Shown one piece after another: positions 3,817 to 26,310 of a stretch of DNA of 64,000 nucleotides (positions are counted from its first letter, which is position 1; each line of letters opens with the position of its first letter). A program made the translations under genes and the position numbers. The notes under the pieces are model-generated. The model ran no database searches. It had not been told where the DNA came from and worked only from the letters and a program-made list of their open reading frames with translations. The stretch comes from an uncultured Lachnospiraceae bacterium (GTDB lineage Bacteria > Bacillota > Clostridia > Lachnospirales > Lachnospiraceae), in NCBI GenBank assembly GCA_947625015.1, contig CANQMR010000012.1, positions 1 to 64,000 of the forward strand, read 5' to 3'.

Positions 3817-4656
3817 TTATCGTCTATGCAGCGCCCGGACAAAGTTCGGATCAAAATGATTGACGATCTCGCTGTGTCCGATGTCAAACGGTGCGATCTC
3901 CTTCATTTCTTCATCGGTAAGACTAAAATTCCAAATATCGAAATTCTGTTCCATACGTTCCTTGTGTGTGGACTTCGGGATCACGACAACGCCCCGCTGT
4001 ACATTCCACCGCAGAGCAACCTGGGCGGCAGATTTCCCATATTTCCTGCCAATCTGTGTCAGAACCGGATCAGTAAAAATTCCATGCTTTCCCTCTGCAA
4101 AGGGTCCCCACGCTTCCGGCTGCACTTCATATTCTTTCATCAGCGACAGCGCATCCGGCTGCTGAAAAAACGGATGCAGTTCTACCTGATTGACCATCGG
4201 AATGACGTCCACCGTCTCACAAAAATCTGCCAGCACATGGGGATAGAAGTTGCAAACGCCGATGGCGCGAACGCGCCCTTCCTTGTATAGTTCTTCGAGC
4301 GCACGCCATGCGCCGTAATAGTCGCCCATGGGCTGATGCAAAAGATAAAGATCTAAGTAATCCAGTCCCAGCTTTTTTAAGGAAATCTCAAATGCCTGCT
4401 TTGCACCCTCATAGCTGGAATCCGATACCCACAGTTTGGTGGTAATAAACAGGTCGTCCCTGCAAGCTCCGCTCTTTTTGAGAGCCGCGCCGACTGCTTC
4501 CTCATTTCCGTAAGATGCCGCTGTGTCAATCAACCGATAGCCCACGCTGATGGCGTCTAATACCGCCTGCTCGCACTCTCCCGGATCGCGCATTTGAAAG
4601 ACGCCGAAACCCTCCATAGGCATTTTGATTCCGTTGTTCAAAATCGTGTATTCCAT
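3817..4656 (-). CDS. Aldo/keto reductase, 279 aa
   Basis: An NADPH-dependent carbonyl reductase with the (beta/alpha)8 fold. The catalytic tetrad can be followed as DTAASYGNEEAVG (Asp and Tyr), TTKLW (Lys) and LLHQP (His). The C-terminal IPKSTHKERMEQNFDIW segment is the usual coenzyme-binding loop. It is paralogous to the next gene upstream, sharing length and domain order but clearly diverged. Start supported by GGGAG eight bases upstream. A TATAAT about 25 bp before the start may give it some independent transcription, but no convincing -35 box is seen. Confidence 0.95.
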   Translation of the reverse strand: MEYTILNNGIKMPMEGFGVFQMRDPGECEQAVLDAISVGYRLIDTAASYGNEEAVGAALKKSGACRDDLFITTKLWVSDSSYEGAKQAFEISLKKLGLDYLDLYLLHQPMGDYYGAWRALEELYKEGRVRAIGVCNFYPHVLADFCETVDVIPMVNQVELHPFFQQPDALSLMKEYEVQPEAWGPFAEGKHGIFTDPVLTQIGRKYGKSAAQVALRWNVQRGVVVIPKSTHKERMEQNFDIWNFSLTDEEMKEIAPFDIGHSEIVNHFDPNFVRALHRR

Positions 4657-4761
4657 AATATTCTCCCTTCTATCGGTTCCATGATTATAGATTGTAACTG
4701 TTCAACCTGCTCCATTCACAAAGTTGCACTTTGGGGCCCTTTGCGGCTGACTGAACTGTTA

Positions 4762-5601
4762 CTACAGATCTGCCTGCAATTCCATTGTCGCATAAGCCGC
4801 GATCATTTCCGGAGTTGCTGTGTAGTACCGCTTGTTTTTGTTCACCTTTGCAATCTGTGCCATATCTTCGTCAGAAAGGACAAAGTCAAAAATATCGAAG
4901 TTGTCGCGGATATGGTCAGGATTCTTGGAGCCGGGAATCACCACATTGCCGCTCTGAATATGCCAGCGAAGGATGATCTGCGCATTGCTCTTTCCGTACT
5001 TTTTCGCAAGTTCCGTAAATACCGGTTCTTCCCGCAGGCTCTTGTCTCCATGTCCCAGCGGATACCAAGCCATCAGACCCATGCCTGTCTCGGCAAGAAT
5101 CTTTTTCAATTCCGTCTGCGGATAGTACGGATGCGCTTCCACCTGAACCACCTGTGGTTTCAGTTCCATCGTACCAATTGCCTCCTTCAAAAGCTCATCA
5201 GGGAAGTTGGAAAGTCCGATAGCTTTGACCTTGCCAGCTTTGACCGCCTTTTCGATGTTTCGGTAGCCCTCGCGCCAGTTGTCGGTAGGCTGATGTAAAA
5301 ACAGCAAATCGATATAGTCCGTACCAAGTCTTTTCAGTGTTTCGTCTACCGCGGTCTCTTTTTCATAGACCGTCGGCCAGAGCTTCGTCACAAGAAAGAT
5401 TTCTTCTCTCGGCACGCCGCTCTTTTTGATGCCTCGTCCCGTTCCGCTCTCGTTCATGTAGCCGTTCGCCGTATCGATCAAACGCACGCCGCTTTTTAAA
5501 GCGCTTTCCACAGACGCTTCCGCCTCGGCAGGGGACATCATAAACACGCCGATTCCCGCCATAGGCATTTTAACTTTGTTGTTCAATGTAATGTATTCCA
5601 T
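4762..5601 (-). CDS. Aldo/keto reductase, first gene of the LysR-type operon, 279 aa
   Basis: Second aldo/keto reductase of the operon. Catalytic residues are visible in DTANGYMNESGTG, LVTKLWPTVYEK and LFLHQPTDNW; the coenzyme loop is IPGSKNPDHIRDNFDIFDF. AGGAGG stands eight bases before the ATG. It is the promoter-proximal gene of a five-gene operon (5601 to 1160) and is preceded by the operator/promoter unit at 5635-5702. The pairing with an iron alcohol dehydrogenase and the matching promoter on the flavodoxin/esterase operon suggest a response to a reactive carbonyl or quinone-like compound; this is inference. Confidence 0.95.
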   Translation of the reverse strand: MEYITLNNKVKMPMAGIGVFMMSPAEAEASVESALKSGVRLIDTANGYMNESGTGRGIKKSGVPREEIFLVTKLWPTVYEKETAVDETLKRLGTDYIDLLFLHQPTDNWREGYRNIEKAVKAGKVKAIGLSNFPDELLKEAIGTMELKPQVVQVEAHPYYPQTELKKILAETGMGLMAWYPLGHGDKSLREEPVFTELAKKYGKSNAQIILRWHIQSGNVVIPGSKNPDHIRDNFDIFDFVLSDEDMAQIAKVNKNKRYYTATPEMIAAYATMELQADL

Positions 5602-14101: not shown

Positions 14102-15250
14102 TCAATAATCGTCCAGAAAATGATGCTTCACTCCGTCTTTTTTATAAGCGATTACCGTATTCAGATTCACATTTTCCACACTCCGGAAGATATTTTTCTC
14201 AATCACCGGACTTTGCTGCGCAAGCCTGGCAATCAGCTCCTTAACCTCCGCCCGCTTAGAACCCTTTTCCGTTCCCCCGCAGGAGGCGCAGCTTTCCGTA
14301 AACCGGCACGCGCACTGGATAAAATGCAGATGATTGTAGTCCCGCCAATGCTTAATCTCCTTCTCCCGGACCAGATATAAGGGCCGGATTAATTCCATTC
14401 CCTCAAAATTGGTGCTGTAAAGCTTTGGCATCATTGTCTGAATCTGCCCTCCGTATAGCATACCCATTACAATGGTTTCTATAACATCATCATAATGGTG
14501 TCCTAACGCAATTTTATTACAGCCAAGCTCCCTTGCATGGCTATAGAGATACCCTCTTCTCATTCTGGCGCACAAATAGCAGGGAGAACCGCCGATATCC
14601 TCCTTTGCCACCGTATCAAAAATCTCCGAGGTGAAGGTGGTAATCGGCACATTTAACAGCTTTGCATTGTCAAGGATTGTCTGGTAATTCACCTCGTTAT
14701 AACCGGGATTCATAACCAAAAATTCCACATCAAAGTTCTTCCGTCCATGCCGCTCTAACTCCTGAAACAGCTTTGCCATCAGCATGGAATCCTTGCCGCC
14801 GGAGATACATACGGCAATCCTGTCCCCGTCTTTAATCAGCTCGTATTCATTGACCGCCTTTACAAATGGCCGCCAAATCTCCTTCCGGAACCGCTTCACA
14901 ATGCTGCGCTCCACATCTTTACAGGTGACAGCCGCCTTATCCTCCTGCTGCATCAGCCGTCCCAATTTTAACCGCAGATAAGAATGAAATCCGTTTTCAA
15001 TGCTGTATATCTCATAGCCCTGCTCCGCCAGCTTCTCCGCTAATTCATCGCTTTTCTGTCCGGTATAGCAGAGAAGATAGACCGGCCTGTCCTTTGGCAC
15101 CCGGGAAAGATTTTGTTCAAATTCTTCCCAGAAAATATGAACGGCGCCGGGGTAGGTCTCCTTTTTATAATCCTCACTGCTCCGGATATCTATAATCATT
15201 TTATTCCGGGTATCCTGTTCTAACTCTTCTATGGTCTTGCGCATCGCCAT
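14102..15250 (-). CDS. Rhodanese-TtcA-like fusion, sulfur transfer PP-loop ATPase, 382 aa
   Basis: Residues 1-100 form a rhodanese domain with an active-site loop LLCYTGQKSDE that keeps the sulfur-accepting Cys. The rest is an ATP-pyrophosphatase of the TtcA/TilS type: PP-loop SGGKDSML near residue 148, then CYLCARMRRG and a C-terminal Cys cluster (CACRFTESCASCGG), as expected of an iron-sulfur tRNA thiolase. The fusion would let persulfide sulfur be handed directly to the thiolation site. The ATG at 15250 is chosen over an upstream start because AGGAAGG lies nine bases before it. It follows metY. TtcA itself thiolates cytidine 32 of tRNA; the target here is unproven. Confidence 0.83.
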   Translation of the reverse strand: MAMRKTIEELEQDTRNKMIIDIRSSEDYKKETYPGAVHIFWEEFEQNLSRVPKDRPVYLLCYTGQKSDELAEKLAEQGYEIYSIENGFHSYLRLKLGRLMQQEDKAAVTCKDVERSIVKRFRKEIWRPFVKAVNEYELIKDGDRIAVCISGGKDSMLMAKLFQELERHGRKNFDVEFLVMNPGYNEVNYQTILDNAKLLNVPITTFTSEIFDTVAKEDIGGSPCYLCARMRRGYLYSHARELGCNKIALGHHYDDVIETIVMGMLYGGQIQTMMPKLYSTNFEGMELIRPLYLVREKEIKHWRDYNHLHFIQCACRFTESCASCGGTEKGSKRAEVKELIARLAQQSPVIEKNIFRSVENVNLNTVIAYKKDGVKHHFLDDY

Positions 15251-15356
15251 ATTCTTATTCCTTCCTGAAGCTTTGCCTGAAATTCTGCTCGCAAATTCTC
15301 CTCTCCCCACAGGCAAACCTGCCCGTTTGGCCTGTTCCCATACTATAGCACAAGCA

Positions 15357-15437: not shown

Positions 15438-16745
15438 TTATTGTACAGCCTTAAATGCTTCTTCCAAATCTTCAATGATATCGTCAATATTTTCCGTACC
15501 GATGGAAAGCCGGATGGTGTTCGGCTTAATTCCCTGATCCAACAGCTCCGCCTCGTTTAACTGGGAATGGGTAGTAGACGCCGGGTGAATCACTAACGAC
15601 TTCACATCCGCTACATTTGCCAGCAGGGAGAACAGTTCCAGGTTATCAATGAAATCCTTCGCCTTCCTGTCGTCTCCCTTAATCTCAAAGGTGAAAATAG
15701 AACCGCCGCCGTTAGGGAAATATTTCTGATACAGGGCCTTCTGCGCTGCATCCTCCGTCACAGCCGGGTGATGTACAGCCTCTACCTGGGGATGGTTATT
15801 TAAGTACTCCACTACCTTCAGCGCATTCTGCACATGGCGCTCCACCCGGAGGGACAATGTCTCTAATCCCTGAAGGAAGAAAAATGCATGGAAGGGAGAG
15901 AGCGTTGCGCCGGTATCCCGCAACAGGATTGCGCGAATCTTTGTCACAAAGGCTGCCGCTCCCACAGCCTTGGTAAAGCTGATGCCATGATAGCTGGGAT
16001 TGGGGTCAACCAAAGAGGCAAACTTGCCGCTGGCCTCCCAGTCAAACTTACCGCTGTCTACAATCACGCCGCCAATGGTGGTGCCATGGCCGCCAATAAA
16101 CTTGGTGGCCGAATGAACCACGATATCCGCGCCATACTCAATCGGTCTGACCAGATAAGGGGTGGCAAAGGTATTATCAATTACCAGCGGTATCTTGTGG
16201 GCATGTGCAATCTTTGCAATCTGCTCAATATCTACCACATCCGAATTTGGATTCCCCAGCGTTTCAATAAACACTGCCTTTGTGTTATCCTGAATCGCCT
16301 TTTCCAGTTCGTCATAGTTAAAGGGGTCTACAAAAGTGGTCGTAATGCCGTACTGGGGCAGGGTGTGCTCTAAGAGATTGTAGGTGCCCCCGTAGATATT
16401 TTTAGCCGCTACAATGTGGTCTCCGTTTTGCGCCAGATTTTCAATCGTGTAGGTGATGGCCGCCGCGCCGGAAGCAACCGCCAAAGCCGCCACGCCTCCC
16501 TCTAAGGCCGCAATTCTCTGCTCAAATACATCCTCTGTCGGATTTGTCAGCCTTCCATATATATTGCCCGCATCCGCCAGACCAAATCTTGCCGCCGCAT
16601 GCTCGCTGTTATGAAATACATAGGAGGACGTCTGGTAGATTGGCACCGCCCTTGCATCTGTCACAGGATCCGGCTTTTCCTGTCCGACATGTAACTGAAG
16701 TGTCTCAAATTTTAAATTTCTTTCTGCTCTTGTCTTCTTACTCAT
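15438..16745 (-). CDS. metY: O-acetylhomoserine sulfhydrylase, 435 aa
   Basis: PLP enzyme of the Cys/Met metabolism family that makes homocysteine from O-acetylhomoserine and sulfide. Visible: YQTSSYVF near the N-terminus, LEGGVAALAVASGAAA, IDNTFATPYLVRP and the PLP-lysine motif SATKFIGGHGTTIGG; the C-terminal IHPASTTHSQLNEAE segment is typical of OAH sulfhydrylases. The start is the third of three ATGs in a row, spaced seven bases from AGAGG. It is preceded by a 170-nt leader that holds a small ORF with tandem Cys codons (16814-16876). A second, shorter paralogue is at 22465-23703. Confidence 0.93.
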   Translation of the reverse strand: MSKKTRAERNLKFETLQLHVGQEKPDPVTDARAVPIYQTSSYVFHNSEHAAARFGLADAGNIYGRLTNPTEDVFEQRIAALEGGVAALAVASGAAAITYTIENLAQNGDHIVAAKNIYGGTYNLLEHTLPQYGITTTFVDPFNYDELEKAIQDNTKAVFIETLGNPNSDVVDIEQIAKIAHAHKIPLVIDNTFATPYLVRPIEYGADIVVHSATKFIGGHGTTIGGVIVDSGKFDWEASGKFASLVDPNPSYHGISFTKAVGAAAFVTKIRAILLRDTGATLSPFHAFFFLQGLETLSLRVERHVQNALKVVEYLNNHPQVEAVHHPAVTEDAAQKALYQKYFPNGGGSIFTFEIKGDDRKAKDFIDNLELFSLLANVADVKSLVIHPASTTHSQLNEAELLDQGIKPNTIRLSIGTENIDDIIEDLEEAFKAVQ

Positions 16746-16813
16746 CATCATACCTCTTTCCGCAGTAATCTGCTTATTCAAATTCATATTTTTCTTTCTC
16801 TTTCTTTCCGTCT

Positions 16814-16876
16814 TTATTTCACACAACACATGGCATGGTATAACGCCACCCTGTTTTCAAATTGTACAAACCGCAT
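16814..16876 (-). CDS. Leader peptide with tandem Cys codons upstream of metY, 20 aa
   Basis: A minus-strand ORF of 20 codons begins at ATG 16876 (or ATG 16882, two codons earlier) with AAAGGA and GGAG at suitable spacing. It begins MRFVQFENRV and ends HAMCCVK before TAA; the two Cys codons are TGT TGT, three codons from the stop. It lies between the metY promoter (16927-16955) and the metY start and ends 68 bp before it. Position and Cys codons suggest a leader peptide whose translation senses cysteinyl-tRNA. No alternative terminator hairpin is visible after it, so any control would be translational or Rho-linked. Expression is not proven. Confidence 0.55.
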   Translation of the reverse strand: MRFVQFENRVALYHAMCCVK

Positions 16877-17017: not shown

Positions 17018-17440
17018 TCAGATTATATACTGGTTAATCTGCTCCTCCTGCCATTCCAACATATCTTTAAGGGTGATATGGTCCACCACATTGTTAATGG
17101 CCTCCTCTAATTGCGTCCAGATTCTTGCGGTCACAAATTCCCGTTCATTGCTGTTGGCATCGTCATAGACTACCGGAGCAAGGCTGCCCTCAGTCTGCCG
17201 CAAAATCATTCCCACAGTATACTGCTCCGGCGGATTCTTAAGCATATAGCCGCCCTGAGGCCCGCGGATACTCCTGACAAAACCCGCTTTATTCAGCAGA
17301 GATATAATCTGCTCCAGATATTTTTCGGAAATCTGCTGCCGCTTGGCCACATCCCGCAGCCGCACCGGTTCCCCGGTGTTATAGGTTGCCAGGTCTAACA
17401 TCAGCAGCAATGCATATCTTCCTTTTGTTGATATTCTCAT
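17018..17440 (-). CDS. Rrf2-family regulator without cluster cysteines (CymR-like), 140 aa
   Basis: Rrf2 winged-helix regulator starting MRISTKGRYALLLMLDLA, with the recognition region KRQQISEKYLEQIISLL and the wing GPQGGYMLKNP. It has no cysteines in the position used by IscR to hold an iron-sulfur cluster, so it resembles CymR, which in Bacillus senses cysteine supply through CysK. The ATG at 17440 is chosen because an upstream TTG lacks a ribosome site. It is the last gene of the APS reductase transcript, 17 bp after aprB. Likely regulator of the sulfur locus; inferred from context. Confidence 0.9.
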   Translation of the reverse strand: MRISTKGRYALLLMLDLATYNTGEPVRLRDVAKRQQISEKYLEQIISLLNKAGFVRSIRGPQGGYMLKNPPEQYTVGMILRQTEGSLAPVVYDDANSNEREFVTARIWTQLEEAINNVVDHITLKDMLEWQEEQINQYII

Positions 17441-17457
17441 ATACCCACCATTTCCTC

Positions 17458-17769
17458 TCAATATTGATTGGCGTTCCGTCTGTCCACATCAATCACCTTT
17501 TCTTCGCCATTATATTTTTGAATCCTCCAGTGAAGAATTTCTCCCTCGGCAGTCACACTCATGCTGCTTCCATTGCCTCCAATATCTGCGCCAAGAAAAA
17601 ATTCAATGGCTCCTACGGGACATTCCTTTACGCAGGACACACAGCCCCAGCAGTCTCTGGGATACTGCATAACCGCTTTTTTCTTTTCCACTTCAATCAG
17701 GGTTCCCGGACATACCTCGGCGCATCTGCCGCAGCCAATACATTTTTCCCGATTAATCCGTATGCTCAT
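17458..17769 (-). CDS. aprB: Ferredoxin-like beta subunit of APS reductase, 103 aa
   Basis: Small iron-sulfur protein with two [4Fe-4S] motifs, CIGCGRCAEVCPG (residues 11-23) and CWGCVSCVKECPVG (residues 40-53), followed by a tail of about 45 residues. It is shorter than AprB of dissimilatory sulfate reducers, lacking the long C-terminal arm. It would feed electrons to AprA. The start at 17769 overlaps the aprA stop by 17 bp and has GGAGG upstream, so the two subunits are translationally linked. Confidence 0.88.
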   Translation of the reverse strand: MSIRINREKCIGCGRCAEVCPGTLIEVEKKKAVMQYPRDCWGCVSCVKECPVGAIEFFLGADIGGNGSSMSVTAEGEILHWRIQKYNGEEKVIDVDRRNANQY

Positions 17770-19453
17770 ATACTTCCGCCTCCACAATATCTCTGAAAAT
17801 CACCTGAATCTGTCCGTCCTTCAGCCTGGTATTCAGATATTTAAAATATGCCTCATTCCTGTCCGGATAATCCAGATATTCATTAAAAGAATGCCATCTG
17901 GTCTCCCGGCGGTTTCGTAAATGAACAAGCAGAGTTTTACAGACCGTAAGCCGTTCCTTAAGCTCACAGGCAAAGAGCAGCTCATGCATATTAGCGGCTC
18001 CTATATGCGCTGTCATTGCCTCTAAACGCGCTATCTTTTCTGCGGCCAGCTTTAACTGCGCTTCACTGTATTGATAATTCCTTGTTATTCCACCGGCATA
18101 CTCATCCATGATTTTCTGCATTGCTTCTTCCAGCTCCTCCACAGAAAATACCGGATTTTCTTCATTGCGAACGGTCTCATAACCGGCAATTATCCCCGCA
18201 GCCTGCCGGCTTATATGCTCCGGCACAGGCTCATGCGCAGAAGGTCTCCCGCTCAGATTTTTAATGATGTGTAAGGCGGCAATCTCCCCTTCTGCCAGGG
18301 CTCCGGTTACATACTTCTGCGGACAGCCCCCTGCCACATCACCGGCTGCATACAAGCCATGGACGGTTGTTTCCCGGTTCGTGTCCACCCAGTAACCGCT
18401 TGCAGTATGGCCGCCAACAATATAGGGCTCTGTCCCTTCTATCTCCACATCCTCCTGGCTTGGGTATGCACCGCTTTCCACCCATTTTAAGGTCTGGCTG
18501 GGAGCCATATTGAGATACGCTTTTAACAAGTCCTCATCCTGCTCCTTTGTAATGCCGCTGGTCTTTAAATAACAGGGGCCGTTTCCCAGTTGATTTTCCC
18601 GCACTGTTCCATACACCCGCTCACTAGTGGTAAGCCCATACCGGTCTTCATAAATAACGCCGCGGGAATTTATCTGCTTTGCTCCGACTCCCTGGGCAAT
18701 GGTTCCCGTCGGGGCAATGGTATCCTTGCACCGAAGGGCAATAAACCGCATTTCAAAGGAGGTCATCTCCGCCCCTGCGCGAATACCCATGGCATATCCC
18801 CCGCCGGTGTTAAAGGGCGGATACCACATTTTATGTCGGGAAAAACCGGGATTATTCGGCCGGTAAAGTCCGGCGGCTCCGCCGGTTGCCACCAGCACCG
18901 CCTGCGCTTCAATAATATATGCCTTTTCCTCTTTTACGGAAAAGCCTGCCGCGCCATATACATGGTTATCATCCACCAGTAAGTCGGTAATATTGACATT
19001 GTTTTGAACCGTTACCCGCTCTGCCTCCTGCACAGCCTTTGCAAGAATCGGCTTAAAGTTCTCCCCGTTAATCTTGATATTCCGGTCGCCTCTGGCTACA
19101 TAGTCCCCGTTCTCATCCTTTAGAATCACAAGGCCTAAGCGTTCCATGTCCGCTGTCACCGCATTAAAGCGCTTAGCGGCTGACAAGAGCAAATCCTTCC
19201 GGACAATTCCATTGGCATCCCTTGTGGCGTAATCCACATAGTCCTGAGGCTTCTTACCCTTTACAATATAAGCGTTAATGGCATTGACTCCGGCAGCAAG
19301 GCAGCCGCTTCTTATCACATTCGCCTTTTCTGCAATCAGAACTGAAAACCGGGAATTTCTGCTGAGCGTCAGCGCGGCATAGCAGCCCGCCGTCCCTCCG
19401 CCTATAATTAACACATCTGTGTTAATCCTTTCTATCTGTAACCCTTCTTTCAT
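17753..19453 (-). CDS. aprA: Adenylylsulfate reductase alpha subunit (assimilatory type), 566 aa
   Basis: FAD flavoprotein that reduces adenosine 5'-phosphosulfate to sulfite and AMP. The FAD site IIGGGTAGCYAALTL is at the N-terminus, GCLAAGVNAINAY shortly after, and the C-terminal HGLYAAGDVAGGCPQKYVTGALAEGEIAA motif of the fumarate reductase/AprA superfamily is intact. Clostridia often use this AprBA type for assimilation instead of PAPS reductase. The ATG at 19453 is preferred: a promoter with TATAAT at 19494-19499 would place an upstream ATG inside the -10 region. Sits in the sulfur operon with the JAMM protease upstream and aprB overlapping downstream. Confidence 0.92.
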   Translation of the reverse strand: MKEGLQIERINTDVLIIGGGTAGCYAALTLSRNSRFSVLIAEKANVIRSGCLAAGVNAINAYIVKGKKPQDYVDYATRDANGIVRKDLLLSAAKRFNAVTADMERLGLVILKDENGDYVARGDRNIKINGENFKPILAKAVQEAERVTVQNNVNITDLLVDDNHVYGAAGFSVKEEKAYIIEAQAVLVATGGAAGLYRPNNPGFSRHKMWYPPFNTGGGYAMGIRAGAEMTSFEMRFIALRCKDTIAPTGTIAQGVGAKQINSRGVIYEDRYGLTTSERVYGTVRENQLGNGPCYLKTSGITKEQDEDLLKAYLNMAPSQTLKWVESGAYPSQEDVEIEGTEPYIVGGHTASGYWVDTNRETTVHGLYAAGDVAGGCPQKYVTGALAEGEIAALHIIKNLSGRPSAHEPVPEHISRQAAGIIAGYETVRNEENPVFSVEELEEAMQKIMDEYAGGITRNYQYSEAQLKLAAEKIARLEAMTAHIGAANMHELLFACELKERLTVCKTLLVHLRNRRETRWHSFNEYLDYPDRNEAYFKYLNTRLKDGQIQVIFRDIVEAEVYEHTD

Positions 19454-19493
19454 GTTATAGTAATCCCTTTCTGAAAAGTTCATACCGCTGTTC

Positions 19494-19522
19494 ATTATAT
19501 CATCTGTATTCCTATTTGTACA
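19494..19522 (-). promoter_or_regulatory. Internal promoter for aprA with TAGGAATA in the spacer
   Basis: TGTACA, 17-bp spacer, TATAAT on the minus strand. The spacer holds ATAGGAATA, shared with other promoters of the sulfur locus. Confidence 0.6.
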
Positions 19523-19583: not shown

Positions 19584-20009
19584 TTACTCCACGATATCTA
19601 TCTCATGCGCTGTCACATTCTTATTCCCGTCAATTCCAAATGCCCTTAATACAGGGTTATCCGGCTGTTGCAGGGAAAGAATCAGATACTCAATGGAAGA
19701 ATCATAAGCAAGCCGCTTATCCTCCTCTGAAGGTCTGGAAGGCGACTCCGGATGGGAATGAAAATTCCCGATTATCGATACGCCGTCTGCCCTTGCATCT
19801 TTAAGGGCTGCCAGCTGCTCCTTCGGATCCATGGAAAAATGCTCGTTACTGGCATCCACATTGGTCAGCAGATACACCTTCGTCACCGTTTTTACTTCGC
19901 CGTCAACCCTTCCCCCAAGCAGCCCGCAGGCCTCATTGGGCAGGCCAGCCCTGCAATGCTTCAGCATCGCTTCATAATCCTGTTTTTTTAAATGTATCAC
20001 AATACTCAT
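19584..20009 (-). CDS. JAMM/MPN+ metalloprotease, candidate sulfur-carrier-trimming protease, 141 aa
   Basis: A zinc peptidase of the JAB1/MPN/Mov34 fold. The full JAMM signature is present: the Glu in NEACGLLGG (near residue 26) and HSHPESPSRPSEED, i.e. HxH, seven residues, Ser, two residues, Asp. Length fits the minimal bacterial form such as Mec+ of mycobacteria and HcyD of Wolinella. It lies 12 bp after the E1-like gene, two genes after a ThiS-like protein whose C-terminal glycines are masked by Ala-Arg; removing such a tail is the known job of these proteases in thiocarboxylate pathways. The substrate assignment is inference from context. Confidence 0.9.
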   Translation of the reverse strand: MSIVIHLKKQDYEAMLKHCRAGLPNEACGLLGGRVDGEVKTVTKVYLLTNVDASNEHFSMDPKEQLAALKDARADGVSIIGNFHSHPESPSRPSEEDKRLAYDSSIEYLILSLQQPDNPVLRAFGIDGNKNVTAHEIDIVE

Positions 20010-20021
20010 GTTCCGCTCCTG

Positions 20022-20828
20022 TCACTGTTTTAAATCACATTCTGCCTGTTCATAATCAATCAGTTTCGTAATCGTCGGGTTGCTTCCGCAGACTGCGCAA
20101 TTACAATCCTTAGGAAGTTTTACCGTACGGAAATTCATTTTCAGGGCGTCATAAGTCATAAGTCTTCCCGTCAACAGTTCCCCTTGACCGATAATATATT
20201 TTACCGCCTCCATAGCCTGTAGGCTTCCGATTACGCCGCCCATAGCCCCGATTACGCCCGCCTGCTTACAGGTAGGAACCGCATCCTTTGGCGGCGGATT
20301 CTTAAATACGCACCTGTAGCAAGGGCCCTCACCCGGCACATAGGTCATAAGCTGTCCCTGAAAACGGATAATTCCTGCATGGGAAAATGGCTTGCCCGCC
20401 ATAACACAAGCGTCATTAATCAAAAACTTTGCCGGAAAATTATCCGTTCCGTCAATAATAAAATCATAATCCGCAATCAGCTCCATAATATTTTCGGAAG
20501 TGACAAAGGTCCGGTATGTATGAACTGTAATATCCGGATTGATCGCCTTCATCGTCTCCGCCGCAGACTTTACCTTTGCTTTTCCAATGTCATCTGTTGT
20601 ATGGATAACCTGCCGCTGCAAATTGGATAAATCCACCTCGTCTGCATCTGCAATACCAATGGTTCCCACTCCCGCCGCTGTAAGATACAGCGCCGCCGGT
20701 GCGCCGAGTCCTCCGGCGCCGATAATTAAAACCTTAGCGTTTAACAATTTTTTCTGTCCCTTTACACCCACCTCTTTTAAAATGATGTGGCGGGAATAGC
20801 GCTCTAACTGTTCGTTGGTGAAAGCCAT
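20022..20828 (-). CDS. moeB: ThiF/MoeB-type E1-like sulfur-carrier adenylyltransferase, 268 aa
   Basis: Activates the C-terminal glycine of a ubiquitin-fold sulfur carrier by adenylation. Visible: ATP-binding IIGAGGLGAPAALYL, the IADADEVDLSNLQRQ segment with catalytic Arg, the DNFPAKFLINDAC region, the zinc-binding pairs CYRC and CAVC, and a Cys in VPTCKQAG equivalent to the catalytic Cys of the family. There is no C-terminal rhodanese domain, unlike MoeZ. Its ATG overlaps the stop of the ThiS-like gene as TAATG, and the glycine codons of the carrier double as its ribosome site. Works with the neighbouring carrier; the symbol reflects family only. Confidence 0.9.
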   Translation of the reverse strand: MAFTNEQLERYSRHIILKEVGVKGQKKLLNAKVLIIGAGGLGAPAALYLTAAGVGTIGIADADEVDLSNLQRQVIHTTDDIGKAKVKSAAETMKAINPDITVHTYRTFVTSENIMELIADYDFIIDGTDNFPAKFLINDACVMAGKPFSHAGIIRFQGQLMTYVPGEGPCYRCVFKNPPPKDAVPTCKQAGVIGAMGGVIGSLQAMEAVKYIIGQGELLTGRLMTYDALKMNFRTVKLPKDCNCAVCGSNPTITKLIDYEQAECDLKQ

Positions 20829-21037
20829 TACCTAGCCCCTCCTCCCATGAAATATAAAAATTCTACGGTATCATTTTCTTTTAAAACGGTATTGGGAAAA
20901 TCCTCCCTCGCCACAAATTCATCATTGATTGTAACCGTTACATACTGTGCGTTTTCAATCTCTTCCTTTTCAATGAGCTCGGGTAATGTGATTCCCTCCG
21001 CATACTCCTTCTTACTGCCTGCTACTGTAACTGTCAT
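20828..21037 (-). CDS. thiS: ThiS-like sulfur carrier with a masked C-terminus (GGG-AR), 69 aa
   Basis: Ubiquitin-fold sulfur carrier of the ThiS/MoaD superfamily (beta-grasp, 69 residues). The C-terminus reads FLYFMGGGAR instead of the usual terminal Gly-Gly, so two residues have to be removed before adenylation and thiocarboxylation. I checked the codons: GGG GCT AGG TAA, so the Ala-Arg tail is real. A JAMM protease and an E1-like enzyme follow in the same operon. This matches the organisation of CysO-Mec+ in mycobacteria and HcyS-HcyD-HcyF in Wolinella. The operon has no thiazole genes, so a role in thiamine synthesis is unlikely; the gene symbol is only a family label. Confidence 0.9.
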   Translation of the reverse strand: MTVTVAGSKKEYAEGITLPELIEKEEIENAQYVTVTINDEFVAREDFPNTVLKENDTVEFLYFMGGGAR

Positions 21038-21041
21038 ATCT

Positions 21042-21359
21042 TCATTCCTTCCCTTCTAATAATTCTATGATTTCCGCTTTGCCGACGGTCCCGGCAAGCC
21101 TTCCCTTTTCTTCCCCCTGATTCACCAACACCAGGGTTGGAGCGGACATTACCTGATACTGCTGCGCCAGCTCCATATCATAATTAACATTTACCTTATA
21201 AAGATAAATTTTATCCTCATATGTCTCCTCAATCTCTCCCAATGTGCCCGCCATCCGCTTACAGGGAATACAGGTATCGGAATAAAAATCCAAGAGCACA
21301 GGTTTATCTGCCTTCAAAACCTTTTCTTCAAAATTGTCCTGATTCACGCGAACCGCCAT
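21042..21359 (-). CDS. Thioredoxin-like protein, CIPC active site, 105 aa
   Basis: Single thioredoxin fold with the redox motif DTCIPCKR near residue 30 in place of WCGPCK, and the cis-proline segment VMSAPTLVLV near residue 72. The changed dipeptide between the cysteines will shift its redox potential. It sits between tusA and the sulfur carrier gene in the sulfur operon, so it could donate electrons to APS reductase or handle persulfides; which one is not clear from sequence. Three bases separate it from the carrier gene. Confidence 0.9.
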   Translation of the reverse strand: MAVRVNQDNFEEKVLKADKPVLLDFYSDTCIPCKRMAGTLGEIEETYEDKIYLYKVNVNYDMELAQQYQVMSAPTLVLVNQGEEKGRLAGTVGKAEIIELLEGKE

Positions 21360-21360
21360 A

Positions 21361-21609
21361 TTACTCCCCCACTTTCTTTACTATCAGCGTATAAGTTCCA
21401 TCTTCATTGGTGTTCAGCTTTAAAATCTGATGTCCTTCTTCCTTAATGCTGCGTGGGACATTCTGCACCGGTTCGCCGTCATTCATGCGGATTGCCAAGA
21501 CCTGCCCCTCGTCTAACTCCTCTAAAGCAACTTTCGCCTTTACAAAGGTGACAGGGCAGACCACATCTGTGATATCCACTGTATCATCAATAACAAAATC
21601 AGCCATCAT
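21361..21609 (-). CDS. tusA: TusA/SirA-like sulfurtransferase, 82 aa
   Basis: Small sulfur-relay protein of the TusA/SirA/YeeD family, two-layer alpha/beta fold. The N-terminal signature VVCPVTFVKAKVALEEL carries the conserved CPxxxxK segment with the active Cys at residue 18. It starts inside the end of the sulfite reductase gene (11-bp overlap). In this operon it probably passes sulfide-derived or persulfide sulfur on to the ThiS-like carrier; direct evidence is absent. Confidence 0.88.
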   Translation of the reverse strand: MMADFVIDDTVDITDVVCPVTFVKAKVALEELDEGQVLAIRMNDGEPVQNVPRSIKEEGHQILKLNTNEDGTYTLIVKKVGE

Positions 21610-22462
21610 ATGCCTCCTTTAAAACTTTATACAATTTATCTTTTCCTACCCTGTCAATGGTAAAGCGGAACCGTTCGCTTGGCTTTGCGTTATCGGCAAA
21701 AAACTGAATAGCCGCATCCGTCACCCGGAATAGCTGTTCCTCCGTCGTAATCAGCGGCAGCATATCCTCTCCTTTATATATGGAATTGCCAAAGGTTCCC
21801 CCAAAAGAAACTATGTATGCACTGTTAGCATCCCAGGCATCTGTCGGGCAGGACTTCACGCATCTGCCACAGAAATTGCATTTATCATAATCCACAACCA
21901 CCTTACCATCTTCAATGGTAATGGCGTTTTCGCGGCAGGCTTTGGCACAGACGCCGCAGTTTATGCAGGCCTCTTCTTTCCATTTCACATCTAAGGCCCC
22001 CTTAATGCCCACATCATTTTCCTCCGCCTTCAAACAGTTATTCTGGCAGCCGGTAACGCCAAACTTAAACTTATGGGGCAGTTCCCGTCCAAAATAACGG
22101 TCATTTAACTTCTGGGCGATATCTGTCGTATCTATATTGCCGCTGGGACAGATTTGACTGCCCTGACAGGCTGTAACCGTCCGAACGCGCGGACCGCAGA
22201 CGCCCGGCTTGCAGCCGCCCTCTGCCAGAGAATCCTTTACCTCCTCAATATCCTTTAACTTGATAAAGGGTATCTCCACGCCCTGTCTGGAGGTGAGGTG
22301 GACATATCCGTCTCCATACCGTTCCGCCACCTCCGCAATCTTTTTCAAATTTTCGGCAGTCAGAGTGCCGCCCACAACCGCTAACCGCAGGGAAAAATTA
22401 TCCTTCTGCTTCTGCCGCATAAACCCGCCTTTTTTCAGGGTTCCATAATCTACCTCAGCCAT
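21599..22462 (-). CDS. Siroheme/4Fe-4S sulfite reductase with ferredoxin domain, 287 aa
   Basis: Short single-polypeptide sulfite reductase. Residues 25-90 are a nitrite/sulfite reductase ferredoxin-like half domain; the siroheme-[4Fe-4S] cysteines are in TACQGSQICPSG and VTGCQNNCLKAEEND (pattern C-x5-C ... C-x3-C); two further [4Fe-4S] motifs, CINCGVCAKACRE and CNFCGRCVKSCPT, form an inserted ferredoxin domain. This resembles AsrC and related small clostridial enzymes, not the large CysI. It reduces sulfite from APS reductase to sulfide. Its siroheme can be made by the hemA-sirC-hemC-cobA/hemD-hemB-hemL cluster at 34.8-41.6 kb. Confidence 0.9.
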   Translation of the reverse strand: MAEVDYGTLKKGGFMRQKQKDNFSLRLAVVGGTLTAENLKKIAEVAERYGDGYVHLTSRQGVEIPFIKLKDIEEVKDSLAEGGCKPGVCGPRVRTVTACQGSQICPSGNIDTTDIAQKLNDRYFGRELPHKFKFGVTGCQNNCLKAEENDVGIKGALDVKWKEEACINCGVCAKACRENAITIEDGKVVVDYDKCNFCGRCVKSCPTDAWDANSAYIVSFGGTFGNSIYKGEDMLPLITTEEQLFRVTDAAIQFFADNAKPSERFRFTIDRVGKDKLYKVLKEAYDG

Positions 22463-22464
22463 AC

Positions 22465-23703
22465 TTACTTCTCTCCTTCTATTGCATTTTTAAAATCCTG
22501 TTTCAAATCCTCTATATCCTCAATCCCCACACTGATACGGATTAAATCCTCATACACTCCGGACTGTATCTGATCCTCTGTGGATAAATGTACCGCAATG
22601 GTTGACGCCGGATGAATCACCAGTGTTTTCGTGTCGCCAATGTTTGACAAAATATACGGCAATTTCAAGGCATTGATAATCCGGAATGCCCTTTCCTTAC
22701 TGCCGGCCCGGAGCGTTACAATCGCTCCGTATTTCCCCTGAAGCTGCCTCTTTGCAAGCTCATGGTACGGACTTTTTTCAAGTCCCGGATAATTGACGGT
22801 CACTCCTGCGTCCAGACTGTCGAGAAAAACAGCCAGTTCCAAAGCATTGGCGCATTGCCGCTCCATCCTGAGTCCCAGTGTCTCCAACCCCAAATTATTT
22901 AAGAACGCATTCTGGGGGGAGAGGCAGGCTCCGGTATTGCGGAACAGGCCGTTGCGCAGCTTCGCAATATATGCCATAGGTCCGAATTTCTTATAAGGCT
23001 TCAAACCGGGATACCGTTCATCATCCCATTTGAACTTCCCACCGTCGGTTAAAATGCCGCTAATGGCATCGCTGCTTCCATTTATGTATTTGGAAGAAGA
23101 ATTTACCACGATATCCGCCCCCAAAAGCAACGGTTTTACCAAATAGGGCGTAGCCACCGTATTATCCACGATAAAGGGCAGGCCGTATCTATGCGCAACT
23201 TCGGCAACCTTTTCTATATCCGTCACATCCAGCTTGGGATTCCCTATGGTCTCGGCAAATATCAGGCGCGTCTTATCGGTAATCAGCGCCTCATAGCTTT
23301 CCGGTACATTTTCCTTCACATATTTAGTCTGAACACCAAAAGCCGCTAAATCCTCAAACAGCTCCACAGTCCCGCCATAAAGTCCCGCTGCCGCCACCAC
23401 TTCATCCCCGGACTGCAAAATGTTCATCAACGCATTAAAAAGCGCCGCCATACCGGAGGCACATGCCACGCTTCCAAGCCCGCCTTCTAATACTGTAATC
23501 CTCTTTTCAAAGGCTTCTACCGTAGGATTGTTGATTCTGGTATAAGAAAATCCCATGGCCTTGTTGGTAAATATATTCTCCAAATCTTCCGCACATTTAT
23601 GACGAAATGCACTGCTCTGGTAGACCGGCACCTGGGTAGCCCCAAATGGATTCTTGTCGTCCACTCCGTGAAGCAGAGCTGTGTTAAAGCCGCAATCAGT
23701 CAT
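22465..23703 (-). CDS. metY: O-acetylhomoserine sulfhydrylase-like PLP enzyme, first gene of the sulfur operon, 412 aa
   Basis: Cys/Met-metabolism PLP enzyme. Visible: YQSSAFRHK, LEGGLGSVACASGMAAL, VDNTVATPYLVKP, the PLP-lysine SSSKYINGSSDAISG and the C-terminal IHPASTIAVHLSTEDQ. It is clearly diverged from the metY at 15438-16745 and, unlike it, is encoded with the ThiS-like carrier, E1 and JAMM protease. In Wolinella a MetY of this kind takes sulfur from the thiocarboxylated carrier to form homocysteine, and the JAMM protease releases the product. That mechanism is proposed here by homology of gene order. Confidence 0.92.
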   Translation of the reverse strand: MTDCGFNTALLHGVDDKNPFGATQVPVYQSSAFRHKCAEDLENIFTNKAMGFSYTRINNPTVEAFEKRITVLEGGLGSVACASGMAALFNALMNILQSGDEVVAAAGLYGGTVELFEDLAAFGVQTKYVKENVPESYEALITDKTRLIFAETIGNPKLDVTDIEKVAEVAHRYGLPFIVDNTVATPYLVKPLLLGADIVVNSSSKYINGSSDAISGILTDGGKFKWDDERYPGLKPYKKFGPMAYIAKLRNGLFRNTGACLSPQNAFLNNLGLETLGLRMERQCANALELAVFLDSLDAGVTVNYPGLEKSPYHELAKRQLQGKYGAIVTLRAGSKERAFRIINALKLPYILSNIGDTKTLVIHPASTIAVHLSTEDQIQSGVYEDLIRISVGIEDIEDLKQDFKNAIEGEK

Positions 23704-23741: not shown

Positions 23742-23778
23742 ATAATAAACCTATTAACATACTTTGTCAATAGGTTTA
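23742..23778 (-). promoter_or_regulatory. Promoter and operator of the ten-gene sulfur operon
   Basis: TTGACA, 17-bp spacer, TATTAT on the minus strand (23742-23770). A perfect 10-bp inverted repeat (TAAACCTATT and AATAGGTTTA, 23746-23755 and 23769-23778) overlaps the -10, the spacer and the -35 box, as a repressor site would. Confidence 0.75.
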
Positions 23779-23819
23779 TAGTGAAATTATCTCTATTATG
23801 GAAATCTGCCGATATTTCC

Positions 23820-24221
23820 CTATTTCAGTAAATCGGCAAGGGTAATACTTTCAAAATATTCGTCTGTCAGCCGATAAAGCCCCTCCCACATACGGAGCGT
23901 TTTGCACTCTGCCGCCCTCTCGCATCGGTTTGGCGTATTGTCCAGACAGGCCACCGGCGCTAAAGAGCCTTCGATTAACTTTAAAATGCTGCCAATCGTA
24001 TACTCCTCCGGGGACTTTGCCAGCTTATATCCGCCGCCCTTCCCTCTAAGCGCCCGCAAAAAATCATTTTTGCTCAGCACCACAACGATAGACTCCAGGT
24101 ACTTTTCTGAAATATTCTGCCGCTTTGCAATGTCCATCAATGGTATATATTCCTGACTGTCCTGCTCCGCCAGATCCAGCATTACCCGGACCGCATATCT
24201 CCCTCTGGTCGAAATTTTCAT
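23820..24221 (-). CDS. Rrf2-family regulator with IscR-like cysteines, 133 aa
   Basis: Rrf2 winged-helix protein starting MKISTRGRYAVRVMLDLAEQ, recognition region KRQNISEKYLESIVVVL and wing GKGGGYKLAKSP. Unlike the regulator at 17018 it has three cysteines, C-x7-C-x5-C in the segment after GSLAPVAC, the position where IscR binds a [2Fe-2S] cluster (C-x5-C-x5-C there). It may therefore sense iron-sulfur status or redox state. It lies directly upstream of, and in the same direction as, the sulfur operon, but is separated by that operon's promoter. Its own promoter is at 24244-24273. Confidence 0.9.
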   Translation of the reverse strand: MKISTRGRYAVRVMLDLAEQDSQEYIPLMDIAKRQNISEKYLESIVVVLSKNDFLRALRGKGGGYKLAKSPEEYTIGSILKLIEGSLAPVACLDNTPNRCERAAECKTLRMWEGLYRLTDEYFESITLADLLK

Positions 24222-25374: not shown

Positions 25375-26310
25375 TTAATTGTTGAACAATGCCGTAGACA
25401 GATATCTGTCACCGGAATCAGGCAGCAATGCCACAATGGTCTTTCCCTTGTTCTCCGGTCTCGCCGCCAGAATTGCCGCCGCCTTCAACGCTGCGCCGGA
25501 AGATATTCCAACTAAAATACCCTCGCTGACTGCAAAAGCCCTGCCCTCTGCAAAGGCGTCGTCATTATCTATGGCAATTACTTCATCATAAATCTTGGTA
25601 TTCAAAACCTCCGGCACAAAACCTGCGCCAATTCCCTGAATCTTATGCGGTCCCGGAGTTCCCTTGGATAATACGGGACTGCTGGCCGGTTCTACCGCCA
25701 CAACCTTTACATCCGGATTCTTGGATTTCAAATATTCTCCCACACCGGTTACGGTTCCGCCGGTACCTACACCGGCAACAAAGATATCCACCTTGCCGTC
25801 TGTCTGCTCCCAGATTTCCGGTCCTGTGGTATTTTTGTGAACCTCCGGATTGGCCGGATTCACAAACTGTCCTAATATAATGGAACCCGGTATGCTCTCT
25901 TTCAGCTCATCTGCTTTGGCAATGGCTCCCTTCATCCCCTTTGCTCCTTCTGTCAAAACCAGCTCTGCGCCATAAGCCTTTAACAGATTTCTCCGCTCAA
26001 CGCTCATGGTATCCGGCAGAGTGAGAATTGCATGATAACCCTTTGCCGCTGCAATGGCGGCAAGACCGATTCCGGTATTCCCTGACGTCGGCTCAATAAT
26101 CGTTGCTCCCGGTTTTAAGAGGCCTTTCTTCTCTGCGTCCTCAATCATGGCCAGAGCAATACGGTCCTTAACGGAACCCGCCGGATTCAGATATTCCAGC
26201 TTTGCCAGAATTGTAACATCTGAAATTCCTGCCTTCTCCACATAACGGTTTAACTTAAGTATAGGAGTTCCTCCTACCAATTCCAATGCGCTTTCCTTAA
26301 TCTCACTCAT
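25375..26310 (-). CDS. cysK: Cysteine synthase A, 311 aa
   Basis: PLP enzyme making cysteine from O-acetylserine and sulfide. Visible: [17 protein letters not shown] with the PLP lysine near residue 46, [11 protein letters not shown] (substrate loop), [14 protein letters not shown] (phosphate loop) and GISSGAA near the C-terminus. Length typical of CysK. It has a consensus promoter (26368-26396) and is followed by the LacI gene. In Bacillus CysK partners CymR as a cysteine sensor; two Rrf2 proteins of that kind are encoded nearby. Confidence 0.96.

Follow-up and report, generated by a model that had tools for sequence, protein, structure and literature searches.

In the stretch of DNA analysed here (the window, 64,000 nt, from an uncultured Lachnospiraceae bacterium), seven genes running from MetY to a JAMM protease, all on the minus strand (nt 23703-19584) and followed downstream by AprA and AprB, encoded a small ThiS-like sulfur carrier with an extended C-terminal tail and a set of partner proteins. 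The combination of extended tail and gene set was confirmed and is not due to chance, because the same genes were found together in several families of the order and all 128 carriers collected were extended. The operon is likely a Lachnospiraceae version of the Wolinella protein-thiocarboxylate route to homocysteine (for methionine), in which the ubiquitin-like carrier probably hands sulfur to the homocysteine-making enzyme. The gene set is known, but little studied; new here are the universality of the cap behind the last glycine, the limits on its first residue, the overlap or abutment of the carrier and E1 genes, usually with GGAGG in the Gly codons, and the short loop of MetY.

A profile scan of the operon proteins gave matches to Pfam families ThiS, ThiF, Prok-JAB, TusA, Thioredoxin, NIR_SIR, and Cys_Met_Meta_PP, all exceeding the cut-offs, while the sulfite reductase and the O-acetylhomoserine sulfhydrylase (MetY) scored under the cut-offs of the NCBIfam models nearest to them (Table 1). 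The partner list given in the sequence-only reading of this DNA (E1, intact JAMM, MetY, sulfite reductase, TusA, and APS reductase) was thus borne out, the genes lying on the same strand with domains or models matched. The JAMM protein possessed an intact HxHx7SxxD motif (HSHPESPSRPSEED) and the upstream Glu (NEACG); this motif was present in 124 of 125 homologues, with L054 as the sole exception. In L054, it was split over two frames. Relatives of the JAMM protein on plasmids were limited to a single distant match. Inspection of the E1 sequence by eye revealed a cysteine in VPTCKQAG and the pairs CYRC/CAVC. The promoter-like site within the palindrome upstream of metY is a candidate regulated promoter of the operon; a search of the whole window against Rfam for riboswitch control returned zero matches at gathering scores.

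Table 1. Features of the operon and its surroundings in the window
Feature	Position (nt)	Strand	Evidence
Terminator-like element, 14 pairs, candidate	17001-16971	-	Hairpin 3' of Rrf2-type regulator 17018..17461
Rrf2-type regulator, final gene ahead of candidate terminator	17018..17461	-	Type assigned by eye
AprB-like ferredoxin subunit	17458..17787	-	Named by eye and by position beside aprA
AprA, adenylyl-sulfate reductase alpha	17753..19495	-	NF005331 903.9 bits (cut-off 557)
JAMM metalloprotease (HcyD-like), intact motif	19584..20009	-	Prok-JAB; nearest solved chain 2kks, 156 bits
E1-like adenylyltransferase (HcyF-like), 268 aa	20022..20828	-	Single ThiF domain; no match to rhodanese
HcyS-like sulfur carrier, 69 aa, end FMGGG-Ala-Arg	20828..21037	-	PF02597 45.9 bits; TIGR01683 63.6 bits (cut-off 37.45)
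Ala-Arg cap codons GCT AGG after terminal Gly	20831..20836	-	Register from alignment with PDB ThiS chains
Gly-Gly-Gly codons GGAGGAGGG, GGAGG inside (Shine-Dalgarno-like), 9 nt before E1 ATG	20837..20845	-	Sequence
Thioredoxin, CIPC motif	21042..21359	-	PF00085 86.7 bits
TusA (SirA) sulfur-transfer protein	21361..21609	-	PF01206 71.8 bits
Sulfite reductase, AsrC-resembling	21599..22462	-	PF01077/PF03460; TIGR02912 158.9 bits, under cut-off 324.1
MetY, short-loop class, probably protein-thiocarboxylate type	22465..23703	-	TIGR01326 448.2 bits, under cut-off 495.1
Promoter-like TTGACA-17-TATTAT (23770-23742) within near-perfect palindrome (23745-23779)	23742..23779	-	Consensus match only
Second Rrf2-type regulator, upstream of metY	23820..24221	-	Type assigned by eye
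METY2, second MetY, long loop, past candidate terminator; presumed ordinary O-acetylhomoserine sulfhydrylase	15438..16829	-	TIGR01326 640.7 bits (cut-off 495.1)
CysK-like cysteine synthase, separate gene	25375..26310	-	Named by eye

The carrier ended in VEFLYFMGGGAR (tail codons GGA GGA GGG GCT AGG TAA). Alignment with PDB chains placed the third Gly opposite the terminal Gly of the ThiS chains 1tyg, 2cu3, and 1f0z, and the extra residues are therefore exactly Ala-Arg. Codons and register thus agree with the Gly-Gly-Gly-Ala-Arg end that had been claimed for this ThiS-like protein.

The search of genomes for GG-plus-tail carriers beside JAMM genes, suggested in the same reading, gave a uniform outcome: 1-10 residues followed GGG in 113 of 113 distinct carriers (the 128 after removal of repeats), and a JAMM gene adjoined 109 of them, the contigs of the remaining four ending nearby. 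JAMM matches were found in 52 genomes, those with weak matches only (G011, G157, and G251) being excluded, and all loci returned came from outside the group of Wolinella. Of 80 loci found via the carrier, 77 had a JAMM gene, whereas the other 3 stretches ended 28, 598, and 827 nt beyond the carrier. The JAMM gene of L070 had no carrier within its 10-kb stretch. Six of six strong matches in 100 genomes from the phylum of a Synergistaceae record were also capped, one being in the genome of L159 that was already among the 113. With L136 (one undetermined base) excluded from the first-residue and Gly-codon counts, the residue after GGG was C, A, Q, S, R, or T in 107 of 112 carriers and acidic in none of the 112. 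Around the 88 carriers with full flanks, E1 was found near 88, TusA near 82, sulfite reductase near 75, MetY near 73, and thioredoxin near 63. Since Cys was the commonest first cap residue (33/112), a self-cleaving Gly-Cys tail, with an acyl shift to a thioester and no need for E1, was considered; it was rejected, as E1 accompanied every one of the 88 carriers and 79 of 112 caps started with a residue other than Cys.

The weaker ThiS-like frames differed: 43 of 45 ended exactly in GG (exceptions L204 and L186), in a set that omits matches above 70 bits or off the contig end and hence L231 (40 regions, mostly short frames, were hand-picked among the matches listed). Another tally of tails scored L178 as bare, although this is a 340-residue frame with a chance GGGG end. 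L231 is ThiS-like, has the tail AND, and adjoins a JAMM gene; short tails also occurred on a few MoaD-like frames. These data show that the cap is universal among the examined carriers of this class, free in length and limited in its first residue, and that it is absent from nearly all examined classical ThiS frames. The two-residue length, taken before as a special feature, is therefore one of a range.

The tail codons were also considered with regard to the start of E1, which overlaps the carrier stop in the locus (TAATG). The E1 start was located for 117 of the 128 carriers, and 101 of these, distinct and N-free, were used for the Gly-codon counts. The carrier gene overlapped or abutted the E1 gene in 94 of 101 (-25 to +3 nt). 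Of these 94, 89 had GGAGG in the Gly codons, and in 71 of the 89 the motif stood 8-10 nt before the E1 ATG. The Gly codon supplying GGAGG tended to move with the cap length. For carriers whose distance to E1 was -1 nt or greater, GGA stood as the second Gly codon in 7 of 44 one-residue tails versus 29 of 33 two-residue tails. Such counts would be expected if the tail were a by-product of tight packing, with the Gly codons serving as the E1 ribosome-binding site and the extra codons only spacing the ATG. This is unlikely, however, as all 7 carriers with a gap of 24-139 nt before E1 kept the cap yet lacked GGAGG in the Gly codons, and bare ThiS genes are closely packed too: the next reading frame lay at -1 to +6 nt in 12 of 15 chosen by eye from the 43, and close packing thus needs no tail. 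Both observations weaken the view that the tail serves only as a spacer for translation. Conceivably, and we propose it tentatively, the terminal codons carry two layers in a single joint reading. At the protein level, an obligatory cap, nearly free in length and sequence, would hold the new carrier off until the JAMM cut (a once-only licence); at the RNA level, the triple-Gly codons would act as the E1 ribosome-binding site, and E1 would therefore be made in step with the carrier.

The MetY encoded in the operon is probably of the protein-thiocarboxylate type. A short loop like that of Wolinella MetY was present in 107 of 107 MetY proteins of carrier loci, with the METY/METY2 labels set by the best-scoring query. 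The long-loop controls were few, comprising a third paralogue, 3 PDB chains, and 4 METY2-type frames, of which two nearly duplicate the others. In an unrooted tree of 28 rows, hand-picked from 115 plus 7KB0, the operon MetY and the other carrier-locus MetY proteins sampled grouped with Wolinella MetY (3RI6), itself a long branch (1.91), apart from six long-loop enzymes with support of 100/98. Tree and loop favour this assignment, but structure and sequence scores do not: Foldseek with the MetY model (mean pLDDT 83.8; below 50 at residues 1-34 and 54-57) returned 8SF6/8SF5, Fub7, and 7KB0 first, with 3RI6 absent among the best 50 matches, and phmmer placed 8SF5, 7KB0, and 4KAM above 3RI6. Besides the ordinary-looking METY2, the genome encodes a third long-loop homologue, and the carrier route to homocysteine may therefore be redundant.

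In the proposed pathway, the carrier is translated with the capped tail GGG-Ala-Arg, as seen in the sequence. JAMM would cut behind the last Gly to expose GGG-COOH, and E1 would adenylate this terminal Gly. Sulfide from sulfite reductase, perhaps via TusA kept reduced by thioredoxin, would then convert the carrier to its thiocarboxylate (carrier-COSH), which the short-loop MetY, a class favoured by tree and loop, may join to O-acetylhomoserine. An S-to-N acyl shift would follow, and a second cut by JAMM would then free homocysteine, so that the carrier could be reused. That JAMM would act both before activation and after sulfur transfer is suggested by analogy with Wolinella HcyD. Of the homocysteine/cysteine product named earlier, the homocysteine part fits the Wolinella-like set and a homoserine acyltransferase family member in the genome, which could supply the MetY acceptor; the cysteine part is neither supported nor contradicted, as TIGR01326, the nearest model for MetY, spans both homocysteine and cysteine synthases and the CysK-like gene is separate.

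A real capped pathway with an acceptor other than O-acetylhomoserine is improbable. In that reading, MetY would rely on free sulfide, and the carrier would supply CysK, a tRNA thiolase (for which the TtcA-like protein encoded nearby is an example), or some other enzyme. In some carrier-E1-JAMM loci, neither MetY nor sulfite reductase was called in the vicinity; L153 instead has a rhodanese-TusA-DsrE fusion (scanned), with similar proteins recognised by eye in L079, L136, and L146, and CysK was nearer to the carrier than MetY in four loci (L041, L047, L052, and L053). However, the frequency of MetY near the carriers and its single group with 3RI6 argue against this. More improbable still is a ubiquitin-like protein modifier with JAMM as its deconjugating enzyme. 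A capped tail is usual in ubiquitin-like precursors, and the best NCBIfam match of the JAMM protein was desampylase NF041370 (87.9 bits, under the cut-off of 130). A ubiquitin-like mode has been proposed for JAB-linked E1 systems (Iyer et al. 2006, PMC1779556), but the sulfite reductase, MetY, and TusA genes counted above argue against it here. That the carrier is simply a thiamine ThiS with some accidental extra residues at its C-terminus is hardly credible, and this reading was rejected: the TIGR01683 (thiS) score is above the cut-off, and this model would therefore call the carrier ThiS, but the carrier is the sole PF02597 (ThiS-family) match in the genome, a profile search of the 98.2%-complete genome gave no match for its partner ThiG, so that the carrier is not for thiamine, and the tail is capped here and extended in all distinct carriers instead of ending in bare Gly-Gly.

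In the sets examined, the extended tail marks JAMM-linked homocysteine-type carriers, although the carrier here scores above the thiS model cut-off and a solved relative is deposited as ThiS. The closest solved relatives by sequence have names without this pathway, namely 2K5P/3CWI for the carrier (deposited as ThiS; 2K5P ends in FMGGGK, then its tag) and 2KKS for JAMM (uncharacterised), presumably from Geobacter metallireducens and Desulfitobacterium hafniense. Most homocysteine-type carriers could be told from thiamine ThiS by a simple rule on the tail, with a reservation for the short-tailed MoaD-like frames. A cap that is universal yet sequence-free poses a testable question, why a sulfur carrier must be born switched off. 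Full-text literature searches yielded no account of capped carriers in clostridia among the matches listed, although some of these searches have little power, since the names 'HcyS' and 'ThiS' also hit abbreviations of homocysteine and the word 'this'. These findings suggest that many Lachnospiraceae make methionine by the carrier route.

Among known systems, CysO-Mec+-CysM of mycobacteria joins a carrier thiocarboxylate to an amino-acid precursor, followed by JAMM release, as proposed here, but CysO ends in bare GG, the partners are CysM and O-phosphoserine instead of MetY, and the E1 is of the MoeZ type with rhodanese. The parallel drawn earlier with CysO-Mec+ therefore stands for the release scheme and not for the tail, and is the weaker one; the tail AR and the operon partner MetY were found here in place of bare Gly-Gly and a cysteine synthase. 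In thioquinolobactin synthesis by Pseudomonas (QbsE/QbsD/QbsC), QbsE likewise has two residues after Gly-Gly that are removed by a JAMM protease; it differs in its siderophore product, an E1 with a rhodanese domain, and no known MetY. In Iyer et al. (2006; PMC1779556), the latter operon is type 4a, and type 4e (section 12, Table 1), in Wolinella, Geobacter, and low-GC Gram-positives, matches the present one in its ThiS/MoaD-like protein, JAB, E1 without rhodanese, SirA/TusA, sulfite reductase, and O-acetylhomoserine sulfhydrylase. SirA/TusA is stated there to be always included, so TusA is not the clostridial addition it was taken for; section 12 leaves the capped tail, reported here, unmentioned. 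The Wolinella HcyS-HcyF-HcyD-MetY work is cited in PMC5764234, PMC6225789, and PMC6271081, and neither KEGG nor MetaCyc contained the route in November 2017, according to Price et al. 2018 (PMC5764234). The operon class is thus already known, and the present operon, with its capped ThiS-like carrier, intact JAMM, E1 without rhodanese, and TusA, is best filed with that pathway. In Wolinella, the chemistry of HcyS, HcyF, HcyD, and MetY has reportedly been established. The parallel with it is the closer one, both systems sharing a capped ThiS-like carrier, E1, JAMM, sulfite reductase, and a short-loop MetY that falls with 3RI6 in the tree, whereas the cap is Ala-Arg here versus Ala in Wolinella HcyS, and here a thioredoxin gene lies in the operon and AprAB downstream.

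Genes from metY to that of an Rrf2-type regulator were called almost without gaps on the minus strand of the window, and the set with E1, JAMM, MetY, sulfite reductase and TusA that had been proposed from the sequence was recovered, its protein families scoring above the Pfam cut-offs. Translation of the ThiS-like carrier gene ended in ...VEFLYFMGGGAR*. In phmmer alignments, the third Gly of the carrier fell on the Gly that ends classical ThiS chains, and the extra residues are therefore exactly Ala-Arg, so that the tail claimed in the sequence-only reading was both read directly and fixed in register.

Features of the sulfur-carrier operon and its flanks
Feature	Position (nt)	Strand	Remarks
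Palindrome, near-perfect, 35 nt	23745-23779		15-nt arms; between metY and a second Rrf2-type gene, upstream of it
Promoter-like site	23770-23742		11/12 consensus positions; just upstream of metY, inside the palindrome
metY	23703-22465	minus	
Sulfite reductase gene		minus	product resembles AsrC; directly after metY in gene order
tusA		minus	after the sulfite reductase gene
CIPC thioredoxin gene		minus	between tusA and the carrier gene
ThiS-like carrier gene	21037-20828	minus	69 aa
E1 gene	20828-20022	minus	
JAMM protease gene	20009-19584	minus	
aprA		minus	after the JAMM gene
aprB-like gene		minus	after aprA; named by eye
Rrf2-type regulator gene		minus	after the aprB-like gene; named by eye
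Terminator-like hairpin			14 pairs; after the Rrf2 gene

The palindrome, whose pattern occurred at one place in the window versus 0.05 expected, is a candidate operator. The promoter-like and terminator-like sites are consensus matches and no proof of a single transcript, because scans of the window gave 19 promoter sites versus 13.7 expected in shuffles and 4 terminator sites versus 7.9 expected.

A JAMM search across 392 genomes of the order gave matches in 52, and 49 stretches were taken from 48 of the 51 other JAMM-positive genomes, three with weak matches being left out. A carrier was found in 48 of these 50 sequences (the window included); in L077, the contig end comes before the expected carrier position. 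Locus L070 (G380 contig 22) possessed a JAMM gene of the same family, with no carrier or E1 called in its 10-kb stretch. Searching genome contigs with the carrier alignment gave at least 573 confirmed stretches, and in the best 80, which were kept, an extended tail was present in 80 and JAMM in 77, the other three stopping 28, 598 and 827 nt beyond the carrier. Pooling of the two overlapping sets yielded 128 carriers (113 distinct), none of them bare, i.e., ending exactly in GG. JAMM (at least 60 bits) lay within 6 kb of 124 of the 128 (109 of the 113 distinct), and the four carriers without it (L055, L096, L098 and L118) were all at contig ends. Tails ran from one to 10 residues beyond GGG: among the 113 distinct carriers, lengths were 1 (52), 2 (44), 3 (2), 4 (5), 5 (2), 6 (6), 8 (1) and 10 (1). 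The commonest of the 39 distinct tail sequences, one with an undetermined residue, were C (23), Q (17), AR (15) and R (9). In an extra set of 100 genomes, taken from the phylum to which the Synergistaceae record of L159 belongs, six strong carrier matches, one being in the genome of L159 itself, had the tails F, K, F, VFAGEGC, RR and C, while 37 of 38 weaker matches had an in-match stop.

The residue following GGG was C in 33, A in 27, Q in 21, S in 13, R in 10 and T in 3 of 112 cases, with five singletons; the Synergistaceae-phylum set contributed one K and one V. No acidic residue occupied this position (0/112), versus 26% acidic in carrier bodies, and Cys, the commonest here, made up 0.000 of carrier bodies, both being crude backgrounds; the P values calculated for these contrasts take no account of relatedness. 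Although the first cap codon was one substitution from a stop in 61 of the 112, none of these carriers was bare.

As a control, a phylum-wide PF02597 search matched 222 of 299 genomes, and 70 loci were used (30 returned and 40 hand-picked among the matches listed). Exact GG endings were observed in 58 of the 70 frames, including L178, a long frame ending so by chance. The 12 not bare comprised L231 (tail AND, adjoining JAMM) and L204, both resembling operon-type carriers; four long frames that terminate differently (L169, L170, L176 and L186); and six frames, MoaD-like (by eye) or longer, with residues after GG (L167, L168, L171, L173, L185 and L194). L204 (nt 4619-4831, G482) encodes a ThiS-like protein with a Cys-rich end, FMGGGCCQPKCC, and its strand also carries a Prok-JAB match at a distance of 6.6 kb. 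With the Synergistaceae-phylum loci added, 43 of 45 distinct frames scoring at most 70 bits with the carrier HMM were bare. The cap is thus a good marker of the JAMM-linked class but is not exclusive to it, because some control frames are also tailed. In the MoaD-like L167, L168, L173, L185 and L194, AGG is followed by one residue (L, R, R, R and C, respectively). Among their genomes, the Prok-JAB match was strong in G410, weak and over the cut-off in G579, and only below the cut-off in G470, G506 and G637; since weak over-cut-off matches also occurred in three (G550, G582 and G654) of nine genomes chosen for their bare tails, Prok-JAB presence has no discriminating power for MoaD-like tails. 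In PDB 2K5P/3CWI, deposited as ThiS, FMGGGK precedes the tag, and this protein thus looks like a capped carrier of the operon's class.

The carrier stop overlapped or abutted the E1 ATG in 110 of 117 placed cases; E1 starts were located through a motif, and a few could be misplaced. Among 101 distinct, N-free carrier-E1 pairs, 94 were coupled (-25 to +3 nt) and 7 gapped (24-139 nt). GGAGG lay inside the three Gly codons in 89/94 coupled versus 0/7 gapped pairs (Fisher 4.6e-8, relatedness ignored). Of the 89, 59 had their 3'-most GGAGG 9 nt before the ATG; for 71 the spacing was 8-10 nt, and for the remaining 18 it ranged from 0 to 12 nt. In coupled pairs at -1 nt or more, GGA was the second Gly codon in 7/44 one-residue versus 29/33 two-residue tails and the first in 38/44 and 29/33, respectively; its share of Gly codons in carrier bodies was 138/318. 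The tail is probably not mere spacing, since it was kept in 7/7 gapped carriers, and bare ThiS genes are closely packed as well, the next frame lying at -1 to +6 nt in 12 of 15 inspected. No description of the tail census or of this Shine-Dalgarno-like overlap was found in the open-licence papers searched.

With METY (the operon's enzyme) and METY2 (the second MetY of the window) labels assigned by best-scoring query, all 107 METY frames, each in a carrier-bearing stretch, had 25-28 residues at a loop that comprised 36-40 in METY2-type frames and in the three PDB enzymes compared, which included neither methionine gamma-lyases nor 2CB1, the second Thermus enzyme. This loop has 26 residues in 3RI6, the Wolinella MetY according to PMC11568248. 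A 28-row tree grouped METY frames with 3RI6, a long branch, apart from six long-loop enzymes (support 100/98). In phmmer, 3RI6 was the fourth match of METY and absent from METY2 matches down to E 1e-90; against a 3RI6-type reading, other MetY proteins ranked first for METY by both Foldseek and phmmer. Downstream of METY2, nt 14102-15316 encode a fusion of rhodanese with a TtcA-like PP-loop protein.

Across the genome that holds the window, 98.2% complete, the operon carrier was the sole PF02597 match, ThiG gave no match, and no other match to the operon JAMM was found at E 0.001, while one further ThiF-family relative of E1 was above cut-off. PF04204 (homoserine acyltransferase family) was found. 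Two more MetY relatives, the ordinary-looking METY2 and a third, were present; thus, the carrier route is not the sole conceivable way to homocysteine.

The chemistry of the route in Wolinella was reportedly described by Krishnamoorthy and Begley in 2011. Their main claim is repeated in PMC6225789 and PMC6271081, and the pathway is named in PMC5764234. Iyer et al. 2006 (PMC1779556) give the operon as type 4e, with occurrences in Wolinella, Geobacter, six abbreviations for low-GC Gram-positives and others, and say that it contains a SirA/TusA protein in every case. For the 88 carriers having 5 kb of sequence to either side, part of this set being JAMM-selected, the genes nearby included JAMM in 88, E1 in 88, TusA in 82, sulfite reductase in 75, MetY in 73, thioredoxin in 63 and AprA in 20. 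In a minority type (L079, L136, L146 and L153), a different protein follows the carrier-E1-JAMM trio, near which no MetY or sulfite reductase was called; it is a rhodanese-TusA-DsrE fusion in L153 (nt 4314-5420), with similar proteins in the other three. The operon class is already known as type 4e, and this listing, together with the chemistry reported for Wolinella, indicates that the window's system belongs to a known kind.
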